64,000 nt of DNA from Pyrenula massariospora (taxonomy: Eukaryota; Ascomycota; Eurotiomycetes; Pyrenulales; Pyrenulaceae): positions 2,232,001 to 2,296,000 of the forward strand of contig JAGFMI010000005.1 of NCBI GenBank assembly GCA_021030905.1, read 5' to 3'. This document shows positions 2,902 to 34,614 of this stretch, piece after piece. Made by a program: the position numbers and the translations under genes. How positions within the stretch are numbered: position 1 is the stretch's first letter; every line of letters begins with the position of its first letter. The notes beneath the pieces were generated by a model. The model worked only from the letters and a program-made list of their open reading frames with translations, did no database searches and was not told the DNA's origin.

Positions 2902-5406
2902 CTAACCTCTTGAGGCGGTCGGGCTGTGCACAGGAGACTGGCTGCAGTCTTCCAACTTTGTGCAGATCCAGGTCGATGCGTACATATTCACCCTATCACA
3001 ACTATTGTTAGTGACTTTTCACTCATTCCAATAGTGATTCAAATAACATACCGGTCAATACAAGTCCCCGGCAGTCTCGCCGCGACCCTCTTAGTTGAGA
3101 AGCCAAGCTCCTGAAAAGTGGCAATATACCACGGATTCAGTCCCGCCGATCTCAACAGTACTCTTCCGCCCACCTGCAGAACTCGGTTCAGTGCCTTGAC
3201 CTGCCTCACTGCCTGCGACCCTTTCGGCAGAAACCAGTCCATCGAATCCATCACGACCGCGATGGTCAGTGTCTTTGGGGCCATCCTCGCAATGACTTCC
3301 TGCATCTCGTCCGTATGGATTCTCAGACCGTCGAAAGCGTTTGGATGGGAAAGCTTGGCGTGGGCTTTGGCGGAGAGGTATTCAGGATGGCTTTTGTGGG
3401 TATAGTGACCTTGCAGGGTAAGGAGGTAATAGTGATTATCTTCGCTGAGAAGGGTTGAGTTAACGACTGGCTCAAGAGTGTTGACTACATAGTCGTAAAT
3501 GGCATTGCCTGATGTGGAGTCTTGCTCAAGCATTTGCCGCTGTGCGGGCGGGACACCCATGACTTTCCAGAGCCATTTTTCGTTGCTGATTACGGTAGAG
3601 CTTAGGAGTCGACTCATAAGGACGCGGCGGATGCTGCGCTGCCAGATCTCACGCTGTTCATTCAGGGTCTCGGCCGTGCAGAGTTTCTCGGCTTCTGTTT
3701 TCAGTCCAAGAATACGGAAGAGCCAGCCAACGAGTTGGAGAGCGTGCCTTGACCGGCCCGTGTAATAAAATCCTTGGCCGCTGAAAGCTGAAAGTCCATG
3801 CTGAAGCCAGTATTGGAATGCCAGACTCGACATGTGGGGGCTTAGCTGGTGGACAAGGAGCTTGCGGAAGTTAGAGTGCTTTCCGTCACCAAACATTCTC
3901 CAGACATCATCTCTACCCAAAGCTGTAAATGCAGCAATCTTAAGTTCTAGGAGGTGATTTTGCATCGGACTGGTCGTCAGCACTGTGATGATCATCTTCA
4001 GGGTTAACATACTTTAGATCCACGGCATGTATGCATTTTGGTCTGTCCAACGCTAGGGACAGAATGTTATCGCCGGCGCTTGTGATGGCCAGGACAATAT
4101 CGTTTGGTTGGATCTTCAGCAGTCGCGAATCCACGCGGCTATCTTCCCAGGTAAAGGCATAGATGTACTCATTGTTGAAACGAGTATGCTTCTGTAACTG
4201 CTCGTCGTAGTATATGCGCCAGCTCTGGTTTTGATACCAGCTCGCAGGTAGAGGAAGCCTCGAAGACAAATTCACAAGTGCTGACTCGTATGCCTTTGAT
4301 CGCCGTGTAACAAGGATGGGCCGGTCACATTCGTAAGTAGGCGACTGTGTCGCTGTTGCATCAAGCGCATCGAGCTTTTGAGAGGGTACAAGATCCTTGG
4401 AGCATCCAATCCACGTGTAGTATGGAATTCTGACACCGAAGAAGTGATTTCGGGCGTTCATGCTAAGGACGGTGCCGAATCGGTATTCCAAATAGTCCTA
4501 CACTGTCAGCGCAGGAAATTATGGAGGTAAGCTACATACTCTTCTCGCAGGATCAAGATTTACCCTATCAACCTCAAACCAAGTCCTCCAGAAAATGCGT
4601 GACAACCAAGTACAGTGCCGGTTGAAAGCTCCTCCAGTGTAATTTCGACTCCTGTAATCCACCTCGCTCTGCACATAAAAGTCGCAAACTCCGATGACAC
4701 CAGTAGGAGACAACAGTGAAGCCATGGAATCTATCACGGGGTAGTAGTTGGGAATCATCGACAAGGCATAGCTGAAAGTGATCAACTCCGCGCTGGTCTT
4801 CTCACTAGATAGGCGAAAAGAGCGAGCATCTTCGCAGATAACGTAGACATTCTTCCACCCAAGCCGGTCGAAACGGCGCCTTGCTATGTCGCAAAGTGAC
4901 GGGGAAAGATCCACAAGGTAGACAGCCTCAAAGAATTCTGGCACAGACACAGATCTGCCCATCTCTTCGATGTTCCAGCCAGTGCCGCCACCAAACTACT
5001 TCGTCAGCGAAAGCTGTAGAGGCATGGACGAACGCACATCGATCCAGACGGGCTTCGTCTTGAGTATCCCACACCTGATCCGGTGTTTTAGTTGACCAGT
5101 GACCAAAGCCAACATGTCCTCTCTTCCACGCAGCAGCCGGGAGCGCGTAGCATCATAGGCCGCAGCTTGGGCGCGGTAAAAGCTTTCTAGGGCGTCCTGC
5201 TGGCTGCCATGGCGGTCTCCTGTGTGCGGTTTGATGAAGCATGTGTAGCAAAAGCTAAGAGAGGCATGAATGTCCTTGAGGGCTGGAAATTTATGTATCT
5301 TGTTTGGTATTCTTGTGAGCAATAGGATTAAGAGAGCAAGAAGAATGATGACGGCCACATCGAAGGTAGCAATTCCGTAGGGGTTACCGCCAACGATGTT
5401 CGCCAT
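2902..5406 (-). CDS. BTA1: Betaine lipid (DGTS) synthase, BTA1 type
   Basis: Five exons (5406-5038, 4995-4540, 4497-4013, 3969-3052, 2992-2902) give 772 residues; the four introns are 42, 42, 43 and 59 nt. Order of parts: one N-terminal membrane helix (about residues 15-31); a SAM-dependent methyltransferase with motif I WIDFGGGTGWN (about 120-130, formed across intron 1); then a DUF3419/BtaA-like half with SAGDNILSL and HAVDLNPMQNHLLELK (formed across intron 3). In fungi and Chlamydomonas this fused protein moves the aminobutyryl group of SAM to diacylglycerol and then N-trimethylates it, making the phosphorus-free lipid DGTS in ER-type membranes, usually induced on phosphate shortage. The last exon adds a short Cys/Ser tail. 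The start used is the ATG at 5406; an in-frame ATG at 5415 is equally possible. The symbol rests on family resemblance. Confidence 0.88.
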
Positions 5407-6292: not shown

Positions 6293-8758
6293 TCAGCTAC
6301 TTGTTGCAGGACTCGGCGGTAGCGTCCCAGTTGTCCAATTCTTAGCTTGCGACCCTAAAACAAAATCCATCGTGCCGCCATTAGCGAAGACGTCGTTCCA
6401 GGTCAGCCAAGACTGGTTCCAGTTCTGCCCATTGACTTTCAGTGATTGGACATAGTAGCTGTTTGAACCACCTCCACCAGTGCTGGTTACCTTCAAGGTG
6501 TTTCCCCCTCCAAGGTCGATGCTCAAGCTTTCAAACCGGGGTGACCCTATGAGGAATGTCGTCGTTCCTGTCAAAGGATACAGCCCGATGATGTTCCACA
6601 AGATCCAACTCTGCATGGCTCCTGCATCAGAGTTACCAGGTAATCCAGTTGGAGTCGCAGAGTAATAACTCGTGGCAATATACTTGCTCCGCTCGACGGA
6701 GAGATCCTGCCGATTCACAAAGTTGAAGTAATACGGACAGTTGAAGCATGGCTCGTTCCCTGGGTTGAAAATCGTGTTCCCAAATTGAGCGGTGTTACCA
6801 ACCGGGTTAAGATTTGGAGTGAAGAGAGTATCCAACTTCTCGACAAAGGTGCTAGATCCGCCGGCCAAAGATATCAATTTGCTCATGTCGTGGTAGGGGC
6901 TGAAGCTGTACTCCCATGGTGTTGCTTCGTAGAAATAATCTGGCCAATAACAACCCCCACAATTAAGCGGATCCTCGCTCAAAAATGCACCGTCCGCAGT
7001 CCTTGGTGCGAAAAATCCGTTGAAGCCGAGAGAAGTAGCGTTCGGATTCCAGTGGTTGCGCCAGTTGCGAGATCTCTGGAGGTATTTTGACGCTGCATCA
7101 TTGTTTCCGAGACCTTTGGCAACCTGATAGAGGGCAAAGTCGTTGAGTGCATACTCAGCCGCGCGATTGACCGAGCGGGTGTAAGTTGGAGTAATGTATC
7201 CGTATGTCTCCCAGTCCGGTAATGCGCCTCGGCCTTCATGATCGCTCGAGTCAGGGGCTTCTGGATCGACTGGAGAATTTGGTGGTTGGACCTCAGCATC
7301 TTGTACCATTGCTGAGTACCCATCATCCCAATTCACAGCACCTCGGACGCCTTTGACATACGCGTCTGCTAACACATTGTCCGCGTTGCTCCCCCCTTGG
7401 CTCCGGCCATTGAAATTAGATGACCTTCCGTCCGGCATCCACCCGTCATGCCGGTAGACATCAATTAATGAACGAATGTAGTCCTCATATACATTTGGTT
7501 GGAGGATGTGAAATAGAGGAGTTGTGCAGCGATGCAAGTCCCACAAGGTGAAGATGTCATCGTAATACGGCTCGCTTGATTGGTACGACGGGTTCTCACC
7601 CGTCTTATTCGTCGGGAGAAGGTGCATTCCATAGAGCATTGTGTACAGTAGCTGTAGATCCGTTTCATCCGTCTGAATACTGTTAGTTCTATTGTATCTC
7701 AGAATAGATTTTGCCCTACCGCAGATGTCGTGACTTTAGACAGTACTTCGGCATTCCAAACCTCTTTCGTTCCCTGTACATGAAGTTGAAAATCCGATCC
7801 ACTTGGAATCTCGCGATTAACGTTACTGCATGCCTGGGAGGTAGATATAAAGGAGATGCCAACTCGGGACGTGACCTGCCCATCTGTGATATTTGGAAAT
7901 GAAAAGACGGCTCCAACCCTTATTCCTTGGGTGGACCCATCGGATGTATTTGGAGCCGAGACCGTGCCCCCTCCGGGATATGTGTACGAGGTGTTGCTAC
8001 CAACAAAAGTTCTGCCTACCGCTCCTTCGAAATAGCCGCAGAAATAGATTGTCCATTCGGGTGCTATCAGTCATCAGCGATTGGTTACGACGTCGATCAT
8101 ACCATTACGTACCCAGGTTCCAACCATTGTTATATGTGCCAGATCCTGTGTAGCTACCATCTGAGTTGACTGAGATATCCCCTCCAGTGTAGTTTTGGCC
8201 AAGTCCAAGTGGCCGAAAGCTAGGTAGAACATGTGACACGTCCACCACAACATTTGCCGTAGCGTTTGGTGGAAAGGTATAGCGAAGAACCCCCGCGCGC
8301 TCAGTCGCCGCAAGTTCGGTCACAACACCAGAACTCAGAGTGGTCTTATAGTAGCCAACCTGAGCTTCATCGGCCGATGCTCGAGGTTGGGAGAGATCAC
8401 CAAGTGGATTGCTGATGTTTCCAGACACAGGCATCTGAGCCACGACTCCATATTTAGGCGCACCCCCAGTCCCACTCTCATGTGTCATGCTAAAGCCAAA
8501 GACGTTCCCATCAGGCAAATACCCAGAATAAGCATCGGTGGTGCCACTACTCAGATCAGGGCCAAGCTTGACCATGCCCCAGGGTCTCGAAACGCCAGGA
8601 AACATATTTCCGCCATTCTGTGTCCCCGTGCTACCCTCAGGTTTAGTGTTATTCGCCCAATTCTCACTCTTGACTCACAATGGTAGCACATATTGAGTGT
8701 AATCGGTTGATTGGGCCTTTGCAAGCCCAGCCAGACAGAGCAGAAAAAAAGAAAACAT
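6293..8758 (-). CDS. Secreted GH92 alpha-mannosidase
   Basis: Four exons (8758-8679, 8630-8113, 8063-7720, 7672-6293) with introns of 48, 49 and 47 nt yield 773 residues. The first exon encodes a signal peptide (MFSFFLLCLAGLAKA). The mature protein begins near QSTDYTQYV. The N-terminal beta-sandwich hallmark PFTGTQNGGNMFPGVSRPWG is built across intron 1; the catalytic (alpha/alpha)6 half shows SEPYYDDIFTLWDLHRC, NWDDGYSAM, and the family end GNSDAGAMQSWILWNIIGLYP. GH92 enzymes are calcium-dependent exo-mannosidases, commonly alpha-1,2, acting on N- or O-glycans and mannans outside the cell. Length is normal for fungal GH92. Exact linkage specificity cannot be told from sequence. It lies on the same strand as BTA1, about 0.9 kb upstream of it, with no sign of a shared role. 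Confidence 0.93.
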
Positions 8759-27689: not shown

Positions 27690-29731
27690 TCAAGAAAAAT
27701 CCTTGTCCTTCTCAATAGCCATCACCTTCCTAACATGCTCCCTATTTACCACGCCTTTCTCATCCCACCTCGTGGCCAACATTCTCGCCGTCTTGAGCAC
27801 ATTCTTGATCTGCCTCCCATTCAGCTCCTCCTTCGCCAAGTCCGCCAAATCCCCTTCCGCCAACGCACTTCCCCCTTCCTGCGCGAACCTCCCCCAAATC
27901 TTCCGCCTGCTCTCAAACGTCAGCTCCGGATACCGCATCGCGACGTGAATCCGCGAATGGAATGCATCGTCGATATTCCTGATGCGGTTCGTCGTCAAGA
28001 ACAGAATCCCCTCATAGTACTCCAGCATGCGCAGGAAGATGCTGACCATCTTGTTCCGCTCGAGATCGTGCGTGTCGCGCTGCTCGAGAAACACGTCCGC
28101 CTCGTCGAGCAGCAGCACCGCGTTCCACTTGGCCACCATCTCCAGGATCGTGGACAGCGCGTCCTCGATCCCCGACGGGTCGAGGCCCAGGTCGCCGGCC
28201 GACATCATGTACAGGGGCACCTGCATGTTCTCCGCGACGGACTCGGCGGTGAGGGTCTTGCCGACGCCGGGCGGGCCGGAGAGGAGGAGGATCATGCCGC
28301 GGCCCTTGCCGGCGATGATGTCGTCGAATTTGTCTTTGTTGCGGACTTGGGACTCGACGAAGGCGAGGATTAGTTCTTTTTGTTCGGAGGGTAGGACGAG
28401 CGAGGAGAAGGCAGTTGTGGAGAATGTGATAGGCTGGATGATGTTGACAAAGAAATGGAGCCACTTCTTCGTTTTGAGGGCGTAGCCGCGTACGTATGGA
28501 ACGCAGAGCAGGAGTTCTTTTTCGTCGAGGGATCGATGGGCCGGTTTGCTAAGTGTCTCTTCGGGCTCGATATCCAAGTCGTCGTACATGTCCTCGTCTT
28601 CTTCGTTGGCGTGGCCGTTGACAGAGGATACGGGGTTGGCCAAAGGCGAGAAGGCAACGGCGTTATTCGGGAGGAATTTGTTGTGCGCGTCGGTATCGAT
28701 GATGATGCGTGAGTCGACTGAATGTTTGATCTGGACGCGATGAGAAGCGGCTATGTGATCTACATGACATAACTTACCATCCCACATTTTCCGTATCCAA
28801 GGGCAACACCTTTGTACGCCATGTAATGGTAGCCTTTGAATGATTCGAAGATCCGGCCGCGCTGGAGTAGTCGCATTTCAAGTTTCTCCTTCTCAGCATG
28901 AAAGTCCAGCGGATAGTATGGAAGGCGAGTGATCTTAATGGTTCCAGGAAATCCATAAATCATGAGATACTCATCTTTGCTCCCGAACTTATCTCCGTCC
29001 CAGTCCACGCACCAGCAGCGCAATTGTAGATATGGAACGCCATTGTTGCAGCCCTGCTGGTAGCTGTTCAGCTGGTAGGCACGTTCATAGCCATTTGAGG
29101 TTCCATAGACGAGGCAACCCGGCTCGAAAATGGTCCACATATACCCAAAGTCGATGACTCCGTTGGCCACAAGATCAAGCTTGGCGGCAATAGTCTCTTT
29201 CAATTCTTCTTTCAGTATCTCATAAAGAAGAGCAAGGTGCGCTTTCATTTCGCACTCTTCCATACTGTCAAGGACATCGACAAATTTGAGCCATCGGTGA
29301 ACAAAGGGCGCAAAGGGTGGATTGAAAGTTAGCTTTTCCAAACTGGTCGTAATGCCCGGATAATCTTCGAGAATGATGCCAAGGGCTTTACGCAAGAGCG
29401 GCGACTGGACCTGGATGGACTGGATCTGGAGCTTCTTCTTACCATCAAGACACTTGGTATTGCGGACGAGCAAAGCGTACTTGGCAGTCTCACTGTTCTC
29501 AACAGGGTCGGAGAGATTCTTGGGATACTCGTCGGTCCAGATCAAATTGCCGTCATCGTCCTTCTTTTGGTAGAGATCGATCTTATCGCAAATCATGCCC
29601 TTGGGCTCAGTCTTACCATTTTCGATAGCATCATTCAGCTCACCATTCGCTGGCTTTCTTTGGCCTGTGAGGACAATAGCATCGTCGCCATTTCTGTTGG
29701 ATGAACGGGCTGTTTGCTTGGTACGGACCAT
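27690..29731 (-). CDS. AAA+ ATPase with DUF7025-like region and histone H3-like N-terminus
   Basis: Two exons (29731-28778 and 28730-27690; GTAAGT donor, 47-nt intron), 664 residues. The N-terminal half (about 40-330) is the region found in front of many fungal AAA ATPases (WLKFVDVLDSMEECEMKAHLALLYEILKEEL, GVIDFGYMWTIFEPG, CWCVDWDGDKFG, ITRLPYYPLDFHAEKE). The C-terminal half is a single AAA module: Walker A GPPGVGKT (470-477), Walker B AVLLLDEADVF (522-532), sensor TTNRIRNIDDAFHSRI with the arginine finger, and a C-terminal lid. Members are thought to be remodelling ATPases; substrates are unknown. Oddity: the protein starts M-V-R-T-K-Q-T-A-R-S-S, nearly the histone H3 tail. This ATG is the first in the frame and follows a stretch without ATG, so the start looks firm. 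Confidence 0.9.
29699..29731 (-). other. Histone H3 tail-like coding segment
   Basis: Codons 1-11 of the AAA+ ATPase. If Met1 is removed (Val at position 2 permits it), the exposed end is V-R-T-K-Q-T-A-R-S-S, against A-R-T-K-Q-T-A-R-K-S in histone H3: residues 2-8 and 10 are identical. This covers the Lys4 reader, writer and eraser contact region. The identity is seen directly; any function is inference. Confidence 0.85.
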
Positions 29732-30475
29732 GTTGGATTTTTCTCTGTCTCGAAAGGCTATAATGAAAATGAAATGGGAAGAAAGAGGCAGATCACAAGG
29801 TTGGATCTAGGTCGTAAATGTATTGCTCGAATCCTAAGCAACGAAGACGAAGCCTTGTCCTCAGCGATATTCAATTTGAATGTTTGGAGGGGGATACGAA
29901 AGACGGATTAAAGAGTAGAGGAAAAGGAAAACTGAGAAGTCAGTCTGGGGGCGGATGATTTTTTATCGACTTGAGGGGTGCGAAAGATGGCCAATCTCGA
30001 CCAGGCTGCAGTTTGCCAAATGCTCGCAGTCCTCAACAGTTGCGCAGGCACCCGTTATTGTACTACCTACCATGTGTAATATAGTGCAAGGCAGAATCAG
30101 GGTCCGAAGCCCATCAAGTCGAGCCCCTATCTTCGCGGGCGGGGCGGGATGGAGGTGGCTGCCTGCACGCGGGGACTCTCCCATTCGTCGGAAGAAGATC
30201 AGTGTGTGCCTCTGGTTCCATGCAAAATGTCAATTCAGCCAATATTACATGGGCAGCGCCTAGTTAGTGGCACAGGCTGCTAGGATGACAGTGATAACGA
30301 GGACAAGGTGAGGCAGAGATCAGCGATCGTTGGATGTGCCCCTGGCAAGAAATTTAAACCCAAGCCCTAATTTCCGTATATAGAGTTGGAGGAACAACAA
30401 CGCAGCGTGTGAAACAACTCTGACTAGCATGAGCATCACATATGACAGAAGTGCCACCTGCGCCGTCCTATACAA
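29732..30475. other. Intergenic: AAA+ promoter side
   Basis: Upstream of the AAA+ gene and downstream of the small unknown gene. A CATTTTCATTATAG just before the AAA+ start on the minus strand looks like a 3' splice site, so a 5'UTR intron is possible. No coding frame is supported. Confidence 0.4.
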
Positions 30476-30990
30476 CTAAGGTGCCTTCTTCGTGACGGAC
30501 TCATCCCTACTATCGTTCACTATGACAAGGAGGTCCGCCTCAGCATTCTTTACATAGTCCGTCAGATGTAGGCTTGTATTCGTCCACCCAACGAAGACGC
30601 CATCCGCATCGTGCTCTAGAAAAGGATAGCCGTCCTCTTCTTTGACCAGCCAATCACTATCATAAATCACACAGTGCAATTTATGCACAACATCTTCAAG
30701 ATGTTCTCTCATTTTAGTGCCAGCCGGATCTTCCGGCCTACCGAGGAAGCTGTGGTAGCTGCCGTCGATCCGGTGACGGTACGTGGGATTTGCAGCATGC
30801 TAGGATGGTCCAAATTGGCTGCCAATGGTACCAATATGACACCCGGGTACGGAGCAGACAGAATTGTTAAACGGTGCCTAAGCTCAATCCAAGGATGCTC
30901 TAAACGCAGATTCTCCATTCGACAACCTGTGGCTTTGCAGGTTTCTAGGTCAAGTTTTATAGAACCTGGCATAAAGGAAAAGTAGTTCAT
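30476..30990 (-). CDS. Small unknown protein directly downstream of the NLR
   Basis: A minus-strand frame is open from 30799 to the stop at 30476 and reads as a sensible protein (ending ...LEDVVHKLHCVIYDSDW, EEDGYPFLEHDADGVFVGWT, DYVKNAEADLLVIVND). Just before it sits an acceptor-like CCTAG. An upstream frame starting at ATG 30990 (MNYFSFMPGSIKLDLE, LRLEHPWIELRHRLTILSAPYPG) can be joined in frame by a 41-nt intron 30800-30840, the size of other introns here, though its GTCATA donor is poor. The joined product would have 157 residues. I recognise no family. The ATG lies about 20 bases after the NLR stop on the same strand, an unusually tight tandem spacing for a fungus. A broken gene is the main alternative. 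Confidence 0.42.
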
Positions 30991-31011: not shown

Positions 31012-34000
31012 TTAGAGAATGAAGCTTTGTTGGCCGCAATAGGGCCGATCTTTTTTCAATTTGACAGGAAGGGTCAGCACCTTCCTCGGCTTCCTCGCGG
31101 TCCCGAATATTTCAGATCCTGCTCCACTACTTTGTCTGCTTGGAGCGGGTTCTTCTCGCGGCACATCAGCTCGCCAAATCTCAAATGTGCCAAAAGGTTC
31201 TTTGCCTGGCTTTCCCCAAGAGCCTCCGATACATGTCCGCTTATTCAGATTCTCGTGAAGAAATCCGGAATAATGCCACACCCAATTGTGTTCCTTGTAT
31301 GTTTTGATCAAGCTGATCCGACTGTTACTCGTTACGATCCCTTCAAAGTCAAACTCTCCAATACCATCGGTGCCGATACCGAACAACGGCATGTGGTCTG
31401 TTTTTGCTACTTTCGCAAAGGAATTCGACGGAAAAAATCGAATGCGCATCCTAGCAGCGTTTTGCGTTTGGCCAGGGTAGCCAGGAGCCGTGGGAGATGC
31501 ATAGAAATAGCCAGTCCAAAAACCTCCCATCAGCGATTCAAGAGAAGATTCGCCGCGGAATTTGGAATCTGGAGTGATCGCTTCTTTTGGGGATTCTTTG
31601 GCCCCGTTCTGGATAAGGTAGTTGGCTATGGCCGTCGACCCGTTGTCTCTAGCTATTTTGAGAGCAGTGCCAAAATAGGACCCTCGAGCATTCACATCGG
31701 CGCCAGCAGCAACCAAGGCTTTTACACAGCCCAAACTTTTGCCCACCACCGCCGACCGTAAAGCTGTACCGTGAATTCCTGCAACGATGTTTACATCAGC
31801 ACCAGCCTTGATCAGTTTCCGCACATTAGTTAACAGTCCATGCTTTGCTGCGCCATTTAGTGCGGTTCCGTGCCCTCCGTGGATCTTGTTAACTTTTGCA
31901 CCAGCCTTCAAGAGATCCTGTAAAATTACATCGTATCCCCGGATAGCTGCTCCAGTCAATGGGGGCCCATAGTTCCACTTATTAACTCCATATGGTTTGG
32001 TAGTAGTTGACACTGTCTTAGCCTCTGGGTCAGGAGCAAAGTCGCTTTCGGAAGGAATGCGTCTTGGTCGCGCGAGATCTTCCGCAGAGAGAAGCCTCAA
32101 TGTTCGAGTGCGCAATTCTGTTTCAAGAACGGGTTCACCCCGTGGAGATCCTTCCTCATCGATGTCTTTTGCATCGACTTCCCACTCAGGATCTCCGTCG
32201 AAGTTGACATCTACTTTTTCTGCCAAAAGCATTCTGACAATGTCAGTTTTCCCAAGCCAGGTAGCAGTTTGTAGCGGCGTGCCACGCGTCGCTTGTATAT
32301 CTAGACTCACCCCATGGGCGAGCAAAACTCTCACAGCACCTATTCGGTTGTTGAAAATAGCCCGATGAAGCGGTGTCCCCCAGTCGTTGATTATATTGTC
32401 ATATTCTCTGTTCTTCACAACCTTCAGCAAACAACTCAAGGAGTCTTCTCTCCCGTCATTGGCAGCCCAGGAGAGCGCGTAGACTAGCTCACCACGGGCG
32501 ATAGTAGCTGCATACGATGACAAAAGATCCACTGGACCCACACGAGCAACGCACACGGCTCGTGGATAAGTGTACATCCAAAGACACTTTGTGCAATACT
32601 TGCGATACGTGTCAAAATATTCAGGCTCTTCTGTCCCTAGAAACCTTCTTAGAAGTGCGATTGGCCGATCCTTGGGGCTCGCATTAGATACATGGTCGAT
32701 CCAGTATCCAATAGCGTAGTTGAGAAAAGAATTGGAGTCCTTCCACTTCTGCATTTCAGCTTCGGTTGGCATGTCGAAGTATTGTTCGAACATCAGATAT
32801 TTCAGGCATCGAGTTGCCATTTGTGCGTGGAATTTGGACGTATCCAAATAGAAACCTTGGGTAGGGGAAGCACCAAGGCGACACTGTTCGGAGCGGAGAT
32901 AGTCAATGATCGATTGATGGGACACAGCAGTCTGGGAGGCCATATTTCGGGCATCAAATCGGACCAGCCTCCCACAGGCGGAGAGTATCACTCGAAGATT
33001 CGTTAGGGCTGACGGATTTAGCCGGTTTTGTGAGTCGTCAATAGCCAGCGCTTCTTGCAGCTGTCTCGCTTGTAATGCCTTGGTGGTTCTAGTACTCGCT
33101 AGTATTTGAAGCGTTCGCTGCGCGAGGGCACAGAAGACAGTGCCACGATCGGCAATGCCTTTGAGCATTGCCTGATATGTCGCGGACAGGTCTGGCGGGA
33201 GTTTATCGAGAGACCGACGCACCTCGACGGCATTCGGCAGGTAACTGATGTGGTCTATTTGGCAGACTGCCCATTGGAACATTCCGGCAGCGTCCTTCAC
33301 TATCCTTTCGGCAACCTCGTTGCGCAAGGTAACATTTGCCAGGATGCAGCAGTCGGGAAGCGCTGCCCGACGTGCTAATTCATTTACGACATACTGTCGA
33401 AGATCAGCTTGGTTGAGATCATTGATCCATAATCGTTGGCAATCAGCCATTTCCTTTTGTATGCCGGCATCTTCTCTACTGCTGAAAAGAAGTCGGATGT
33501 TTTCAGATTGTTTTGTGAGATCACGTAGTACCTTTGCAGCCTGTCCGGGGTTCACGCATTCATCCAGAGCGTCAACAACGACGTACATCATGCCATATCG
33601 CTGACAGATGGCAACTAAGAGATTGGAGAGTTTATTCTTGATATCCTCCAGAAGCTGCGATTCCCCCTCTTCGCTAAGCTCCCTTTGAAATTCTTTAGCA
33701 AACATATTGTACAGAGCAGAGTCTCGTGCTAAAAGGCAGCGGAGCAGGCCACCCAACACATTTTTCTCCGCCGTCGTTCCGGCGTCATTGAAATCACAGT
33801 AAAAGTAGGCGATAGCTGCCCCGGCGTCCACTGTATTGGAAGAATTTTCGGCAAGATAGTCAATTGCGCGGGAAGTCAGTACGGTCTTACCAGATCCAGC
33901 AATTCCAGATAACCAAAGAATTTGTTGCTTTCCCTTCGTCCAATCTAAGAATGTATTCCCCGTGATCATCCATTCACCAGTGCCTTTCTCCCGCTGATCT

Positions 34001-34614
34001 ACGACTGCCGCATGTTTGGCGGAAGGGTCCGCGGTACCAAGCACCTTTTTTAGCCGGCCCATCTTCTCAGGAACCAAGATTTGCTTGATCTCCTGGATAT
34101 CTGAGCTCTCTTGCGTGACAAGTGCCAGATTAAACGTCGATTTTATTCTTTCTAGTCGAGAAAGAATCTTCTTAATCTCTTCGATGCTCTCAGGCAACAG
34201 CAGGTACTTTGCAACCGTGCTGAGATCGATCGGTCCATCTTCTGAGAGATCTTTGGCTGTTTTCGATCTTTTTAAAAGACCATGCGCTATCGTTTTAACT
34301 GAATGATTGGACACCTTTTCGGCGTTGGCGAACAGTTTCTCCACATCGTCTAACAGTTCTTCACATTCCTTGAGATGTTTCTTGGACGCAGCGGCAAGTA
34401 GGCTTTCCTCCTCGTTTTCAAGGATCTCGTCCGCTTCCAGTAGACTTTGGACACCAAACAAAACTCCTCGGAGCATAGAAATTTCACTGATCAAACTGCG
34501 AAGCTCTCGGTGAGCACCCTTCACTGCCTTCACATATCTGCAGGTCTTGACAATAGCCCTCGTCGTAACATCGACAAGTGTTGAAATGCTTGCTGTAAGG
34601 GAAATTGGATCCAT
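31012..34614 (-). CDS. NACHT-ankyrin NLR (STAND) protein with C-terminal calycin-like domain
   Basis: Single exon, 1,200 residues. Residues 1 to about 190 are the fungal helical N-terminal domain (MDPISLTASISTLVDVT... with coiled, Leu-rich helices), of the helo-like/Fungal_N kind. NACHT domain: Walker A GIAGSGKT (237-244), Walker B MMYVVVDALDE (342-352), then SSREDAGIQ sensor region and a winged-helix part. About 740-1010 carry some five or six ankyrin repeats (TPLHRAIFNNRIGAVRVLLAHG, TPLQTATWLGKTDIVRMLLA, TALNGAAKHGLLTNVRKLIKAGADVN and others). Residues about 1030-1160 form a beta-rich unit (GGFWTGYFY, FGIGTDGIGEFDFEG, WHYSGFL, GGSWGKPGKEPFGTFEIWR) resembling calycin/lipocalin-like barrels of FBXO31-type proteins. 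Fungal NLRs sense non-self and can trigger cell death in allorecognition or defence. All key nucleotide-binding residues are present. Confidence 0.92.
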   Translation of the reverse strand: MDPISLTASISTLVDVTTRAIVKTCRYVKAVKGAHRELRSLISEISMLRGVLFGVQSLLEADEILENEEESLLAAASKKHLKECEELLDDVEKLFANAEKVSNHSVKTIAHGLLKRSKTAKDLSEDGPIDLSTVAKYLLLPESIEEIKKILSRLERIKSTFNLALVTQESSDIQEIKQILVPEKMGRLKKVLGTADPSAKHAAVVDQREKGTGEWMITGNTFLDWTKGKQQILWLSGIAGSGKTVLTSRAIDYLAENSSNTVDAGAAIAYFYCDFNDAGTTAEKNVLGGLLRCLLARDSALYNMFAKEFQRELSEEGESQLLEDIKNKLSNLLVAICQRYGMMYVVVDALDECVNPGQAAKVLRDLTKQSENIRLLFSSREDAGIQKEMADCQRLWINDLNQADLRQYVVNELARRAALPDCCILANVTLRNEVAERIVKDAAGMFQWAVCQIDHISYLPNAVEVRRSLDKLPPDLSATYQAMLKGIADRGTVFCALAQRTLQILASTRTTKALQARQLQEALAIDDSQNRLNPSALTNLRVILSACGRLVRFDARNMASQTAVSHQSIIDYLRSEQCRLGASPTQGFYLDTSKFHAQMATRCLKYLMFEQYFDMPTEAEMQKWKDSNSFLNYAIGYWIDHVSNASPKDRPIALLRRFLGTEEPEYFDTYRKYCTKCLWMYTYPRAVCVARVGPVDLLSSYAATIARGELVYALSWAANDGREDSLSCLLKVVKNREYDNIINDWGTPLHRAIFNNRIGAVRVLLAHGVSLDIQATRGTPLQTATWLGKTDIVRMLLAEKVDVNFDGDPEWEVDAKDIDEEGSPRGEPVLETELRTRTLRLLSAEDLARPRRIPSESDFAPDPEAKTVSTTTKPYGVNKWNYGPPLTGAAIRGYDVILQDLLKAGAKVNKIHGGHGTALNGAAKHGLLTNVRKLIKAGADVNIVAGIHGTALRSAVVGKSLGCVKALVAAGADVNARGSYFGTALKIARDNGSTAIANYLIQNGAKESPKEAITPDSKFRGESSLESLMGGFWTGYFYASPTAPGYPGQTQNAARMRIRFFPSNSFAKVAKTDHMPLFGIGTDGIGEFDFEGIVTSNSRISLIKTYKEHNWVWHYSGFLHENLNKRTCIGGSWGKPGKEPFGTFEIWRADVPREEPAPSRQSSGAGSEIFGTARKPRKVLTLPVKLKKDRPYCGQQSFIL

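Follow-up and report, generated by a model that had tools for sequence, protein, structure and literature searches.

Histone H3 tail mimics and their readers

N-terminal mimics of the histone H3 tail are already known as a kind. The start of PAF15 (PCLAF), a small PCNA-binding protein, shares only VRTK with H3, and the FOG-1 motif, RRKQ, is N-terminal, although a free alpha-amino end is not what chiefly defines it. PAF15 residues 2-11 (VRTK...) bind the UHRF1 PHD finger with a Kd of 2.2 uM vs 1.5 uM for H3, and a crystal structure has the VRTK end bound by this finger in the manner of H3 (PMC7060239). For the ATRX ADD domain, the IC50 of H3(1-11)K9me3 is 4.3 uM with the A1V substitution vs 7.6 uM with Ala, while values of at least 100 uM and of 94.8 uM are given for H3(1-8) and for unmodified H3(1-10), respectively (PMC7181051). 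Given this weak ADD binding of the two shorter peptides, residues 1-8 alone are not enough for every reader, which tells against any general claim. The RbAp48/Caf1 protein reads unmodified H3K4 at ~600 nM, and FOG-1 uses the same pocket, which also binds the H3 tail (PMC10148413).

The candidate considered here is the product of an AAA ATPase gene within a 64,000 nucleotide stretch of the fungus Pyrenula massariospora (contig JAGFMI010000005.1, positions 2,232,001 to 2,296,000), the whole of which is referred to as the window. As in PAF15, a free V-R-T-K end is predicted after removal of the initiator methionine; unlike PAF15, the protein is a large AAA protein whose match to H3 runs on to R8. 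It has a basic motif in common with FOG-1-type motifs but differs from RRKQ. Among the literature matches listed there was neither a protein other than a histone that copies the free H3 end beyond residues 2-8 nor, with few subscription papers covered, a fungal N-terminal H3 mimic, and the ATPase would, if the mimicry is real, be a new protein class for one.

The ATPase gene and its domains

The two predicted exons (Table 1) encode a protein with DUF7025 (PF22942) at residues 185-278 (99.3 bits vs a Pfam cut-off of 27) and AAA (PF00004) at residues 466-583 (69.5 bits vs 21.2), together with the ATPase motifs Walker A GPPGVGKT at 470, Walker B VLLLDE at 523 and a sensor-1-like FLTTN at 562. With both domains above the curated cut-offs and both Walker motifs intact, the protein is a DUF7025 AAA ATPase like those of other fungi, in which this is an expanded family. 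No other Pfam domain, and no histone fold, was found above cut-off in the 664 residues. The protein begins MVRTKQTARSSNRNGDDAIVL, and a polar linker reaches to about residue 46, within exon 1. The fold index is negative in every scoring interval that covers residues 1-46 and in most of those up to residue 115 as well, and as a sign of a mimic tail the negative value over residues 1-46 is weak evidence. Alignment-free structure prediction for the exon 1 part was of low quality (mean pLDDT 37.7) and carries no weight here.

Among the best 60 of 176 matches in the PDB set, the chains nearest in sequence to the AAA part are those of NVL and of the p97/CDC48 type. Among PADLOC models the best match, of residues 422-657 at 59.1 bits, is to IetA of the IetAS anti-phage system, followed by TRIP13 (residues 424-607, 31.3 bits); the DUF7025 and H3-like start of the ATPase lie outside the matched part. 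Assignment as an IetA anti-phage ATPase was rejected, since the score to the NCBIfam model "anti-phage ATPase IteA" is 52.9 bits vs the NCBI cut-off of 510. No relative of the whole protein was found in the IMG/VR viral contigs, and DUF7025 turned up in none of 2 genomes and none of 14 controls, a count that does not show absence.

Table 1. Features of the ATPase locus, in window coordinates
Feature	Position	Strand	Basis or remark
DUF7025-AAA ATPase gene	29731..27690	minus	two predicted exons, 664 aa
Exon 1 (318 codons): H3-like start, N-terminal region, DUF7025	28778..29731	minus	sequence, Pfam
47-nt intron GTAAGT...CGTCCAG	28731..28777	minus	predicted model; links DUF7025 frame to AAA frame
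Exon 2: AAA domain	27690..28730	minus	TGA stop 27692..27690
H3-tail-like N-terminus M-VRTKQTARSS	29699..29731	minus	sequence
Leader/promoter region, free of ATG; rich in pyrimidines at ~29886-29940	29732..30070	minus	sequence

Whether the H3-like residues are truly terminal depends on the start codon. The ATG at 29731 is the first in its own frame after a stop, the closest upstream ATG in any frame is 342 nt off at 30073, and the start lies in the context CCAACATGG, with an A at -3 and a G at +4. An enumeration of upstream exons, restricted to common donor forms and allowing introns between 40 and 400 nt and exons no longer than 600 nt, yielded two in-frame models, both from one GTAGGT donor with a 264-nt intron. 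Transcript evidence of an upstream start that buried the motif had been named in advance as fatal to the original prediction, and neither of these models is convincing. From the first in-frame ATG, the want of a near upstream ATG, the few upstream-exon models and the good context, the Met at 29731 is probably the real start, with no convincing upstream coding exon. That the true start lies elsewhere, leaving the motif internal or untranslated, is very improbable: an acceptor-like site TTTTCATTATAG 26 nt 5' of the ATG would allow a 5' UTR intron, but within the enumeration limits no donor and upstream ATG yield an open frame through that site, the two upstream-exon models use another acceptor with their 264-nt intron, and the context of the ATG at 29731 is good.

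The H3-like N-terminus

The first eleven codons (ATG GTC CGT ACC AAG CAA ACA GCC CGT TCA TCC) encode M V R T K Q T A R S S. Aligned in register with the H3 sequence ARTKQTARKS, 8 of 10 residues are identical, i.e. R2-R8 and S10, and RTKQTAR forms seven consecutive identities. H3 R2-T3-K4 thus follow a small residue, Val2, in the H3 register, the feature looked for in a PAF15-like mimic. The original claim of a near-copy of the H3 tail at the exact N-terminus of the protein is borne out, the match beginning at the first in-frame ATG. The codons of the H3-like start are ordinary for the window, a point against functional mimicry.

The likeness ends after about ten residues, nothing beyond residue 11 being H3-like. 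Unlike histone H3, the ATPase has Val for Ala1, Ser at the K9 position (ARSS, residues 8-11), no K14/K18/K23/K27 region or other later part of the tail, and no histone fold; residues 12-25, NRNGDDAIVLTGQR, include no Lys. Searches of the PDB set by phmmer with the first 45 and the first 21 residues, queries too short for a fair test, returned no H3. The 45-residue query gave eight weak matches with E values of 0.55 to 0.95; every one was to ribosomal protein L24, and they were taken as chance.

Expected frequency and controls

Per-gene probabilities were calculated both from the composition of the window (14 ORFs, 6,814 codons) and from an assumed basic-tail composition. By window composition, the exact in-place 7-mer has a p of 2.2e-9 and a match at 8 or more of the 10 positions a p of 9.3e-9; by the basic-tail composition the corresponding values are 8.4e-8 and 3.9e-7. 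The H3-like start is also the sole ATG with more than 4 of 10 matches among the 899 ATGs in the window that are followed by at least 30 residues. If 2e6 genes are assumed, 0.004 to 0.17 chance matches to the H3 tail are expected, and in 3e7 fungal genes (~3000 genomes, likewise assumed) 0.07 to 2.5, the upper values being those for the basic composition. Chance is thus unlikely for any given gene but not dismissible for a large scan. The original statement that seven residues would hardly match by chance accordingly holds gene by gene (p ~2e-9) but does not dispose of chance over a large scan.

Prokaryotes, without chromatin, provided a control in which a DNA pattern for M-x-(R/S)TKQTA(R/S) was sought in 84,980 genomes. 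It was found in 39 stretches vs ~30 expected at equal base frequencies. Strict RTKQTAR occurs in 18 of the 39, and seven of these 18 go on as MARTKQTARKSTGGK, i.e. as H3 or an H3 fragment, and are probably eukaryote contamination; one that has MARTKQTARKSTGGK and then diverges (L008) is counted as an H3 fragment, and two that read MARTKQTARK and then diverge (L002 and L010) are counted with the non-H3 stretches. Ten of the other 11, all but L023, are each fully contained in a longer open stretch of a different frame or strand, and these ten are probably not gene starts; a gene start was demonstrated for none of the 11 (ten examined, L023 left out). The L018 ORF in this control is antisense to a 286-aa ORF. 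Six entries filed as bacterial with MAG titles (L006, L013, L022, L029, L038 and L039) hold H3 reading frames, some of them partial, and are probably eukaryote contamination.

A scan of 2.9 million viral contigs gave one match, on a contig (L040) of an uncultivated virus. Two ORFs of 36 and 25 aa both start MTRTKQTARL, at 8017-8042 and 8420-8445, about 400 nt apart, and each start overlaps the stop of the preceding ORF (7721..8020 and 8124..8423, respectively) as ATGA. The first of the two is also contained in a 48-aa frame. The stop overlap, as in coupled phage genes, suggests that these ORFs are real, coupled genes. Since the pair has this appearance, RTKQTAR starts may arise without H3 readers or any obvious use for a histone mimic. 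The paired MTRTKQTARL starts perhaps reflect a duplicated start region.

Mimicry and alternative readings

The reading preferred here, at a probability of roughly 0.43, is that the ATPase bears a short functional N-terminal mimic of the histone H3 tail. A small Val2 permits removal of Met1 by an established rule, and such removal would leave a free V-R-T-K-Q-T-A-R end able to enter pockets that read H3 residues 1-8. The likeliest of these would be the pocket of an H3K4me0/me3-type PHD finger, or the one that takes H3 in a WD40 protein of the RbAp48/Caf1 type. The ATPase may in this way be tethered to a chromatin complex, or may compete with H3 for the pocket, and Lys5, the K4 equivalent, could serve as a methylation switch. 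A more far-reaching proposal is judged unlikely: that in the course of evolution the ATPase acquired a copy of the free H3 end which is unusually long for a protein other than a histone (residues 2-8) and which docks in H3K4 readers or is methylated by Set1/COMPASS, tying ATP-driven remodelling or removal of reader complexes to the H3K4 code.

Two readers, UHRF1 PHD and ATRX ADD, tolerate valine where H3 has Ala1, and this measured tolerance removes the main objection to such binding. The range of partners is nevertheless narrower than originally envisaged. The start keeps the residues that R2/K4 readers probably contact and not those that K9 readers need, so that mimicry, if any, would be of the H3R2/K4 reading surface; neither the H3K9 surface nor the import signal of yeast H3 would be imitated. 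The Ser at the K9 position, together with the loss of K14 and all that follows it, disfavours readers and writers of K9 and also LSD1-type enzymes, which need a longer H3 tail. An H3K9-type mimic (ARKS, the HP1/chromodomain ligand) was rejected as a description of this start, the Lys of A-R-K-S/T being absent. The earlier proposal is thus supported in part: the valine is acceptable to two readers and the list of partners shrinks, while recruitment, modification and competition are inferred.

Counted in favour of the mimic are the exact in-place 7-mer at the first in-frame ATG, the prokaryote control, the published tolerance of Val and the use of one RbAp48/Caf1 pocket by both H3 and FOG-1; counted against it are the loss of likeness after about ten residues, the lack of any other chromatin or nuclear signature in the protein, the ordinary codons, the paired virus ORFs, the 0.07 to 2.5 chance matches expected over ~3000 fungal genomes and the weak binding of short H3 peptides by ATRX ADD. 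No orthologue turned up in the collections searched, and with it no sign of purifying selection. The main competitor, which carries a sizeable probability short of even odds, is coincidence: the N-terminus would be short, basic and probably disordered, would read RTKQTAR by accident and would play no part connected with H3. Many N-termini are scanned in such work, and the expected number of matches rises further if any famous peptide would count; the identical 7-mer begins two small ORFs on one virus contig, the likeness to H3 is gone after residue 11, and the admittedly short phmmer queries found no H3 in the PDB set. Against coincidence stand the per-gene chance of 2e-9 to 8e-8, the singular score of this start among the ATGs of the window, and the exact register with the free end, for which chance does not call. 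It is the very low per-gene rate together with the exact terminal register that produces a weak lean to the mimic over chance, a lean that derives from a rough prior and not from conservation. The prior puts mimics at 1e-4 per gene and the chance that a mimic matches this closely at 0.1-5%, and treats the selection of this locus by the original prediction as acting equally on mimic and chance; under it mimicry would equal or exceed chance. Should the match be due to chance, it would be a useful calibration of the trust to be placed in short N-terminal matches.

Two further origins of the peptide are given much less weight. Capture of the first codons from a histone H3 gene, by way of a 5' exon or duplicated start and with no or only partial retention of H3 function, is improbable: the identity is contiguous from the ATG, as a 5'-end capture would give, but in the gene model one exon continues with no intron after codon 10, and the codons CAA and ACA are frequent across the window and do not clearly point to a highly expressed histone gene. 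Also quite improbable is a basic sorting or import signal, for karyopherin nuclear import or other targeting, that only resembles H3. Three basic residues do fall within the first nine, the pI of peptide 1-12 is ~12, and in yeast the H3 tail is an import signal (PMC5677370); however, K14 and K23, through which Kap123 recognises H3 in that report, are absent here, neither of two basic-NLS patterns, K-K/R-x-K/R and four consecutive basic residues, occurs anywhere in the protein, and inspection reveals no hydrophobic face of the kind used in mitochondrial import. A Kap123-type H3 import signal was specifically rejected, the K14 and K23 equivalents being missing from a region whose residues 12-25 have no Lys.

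If the H3-like start is conserved and functions as a mimic, free-N-terminus histone-tail mimicry would enter a little-studied fungal ATPase family, and the ten-residue peptide would offer a direct handle on what these enzymes act on.

Neighbouring features of the window

The gene content and the short intron of the window fit a fungal origin, and Rfam and tRNA scans of the whole window gave no matches. The upstream neighbour of the ATPase gene, on the same strand (31012-34614, minus), encodes an NLR-like fungal protein of 1200 aa in which NPHP3_N/NACHT is combined with ankyrin repeats. Its PigL_N-like start is just under cut-off (26.1 vs 27.2 bits), and PADLOC PDC-M72A is matched at 70.5 bits by its residues 886-1008, which are probably ankyrin repeats. 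Between the two genes is a 107-codon open stretch (30476-30799, minus; RIDGSYHSFLGRPEDPAG...) that is coding-like by eye and has no Pfam match; it is perhaps an exon or a gene remnant. Elsewhere in the window a DUF3419 protein is encoded at 3039-4013 (minus; 374.7 bits), and beside its gene is an open stretch at 4519-4995 (minus) that is methyltransferase-like by inspection.
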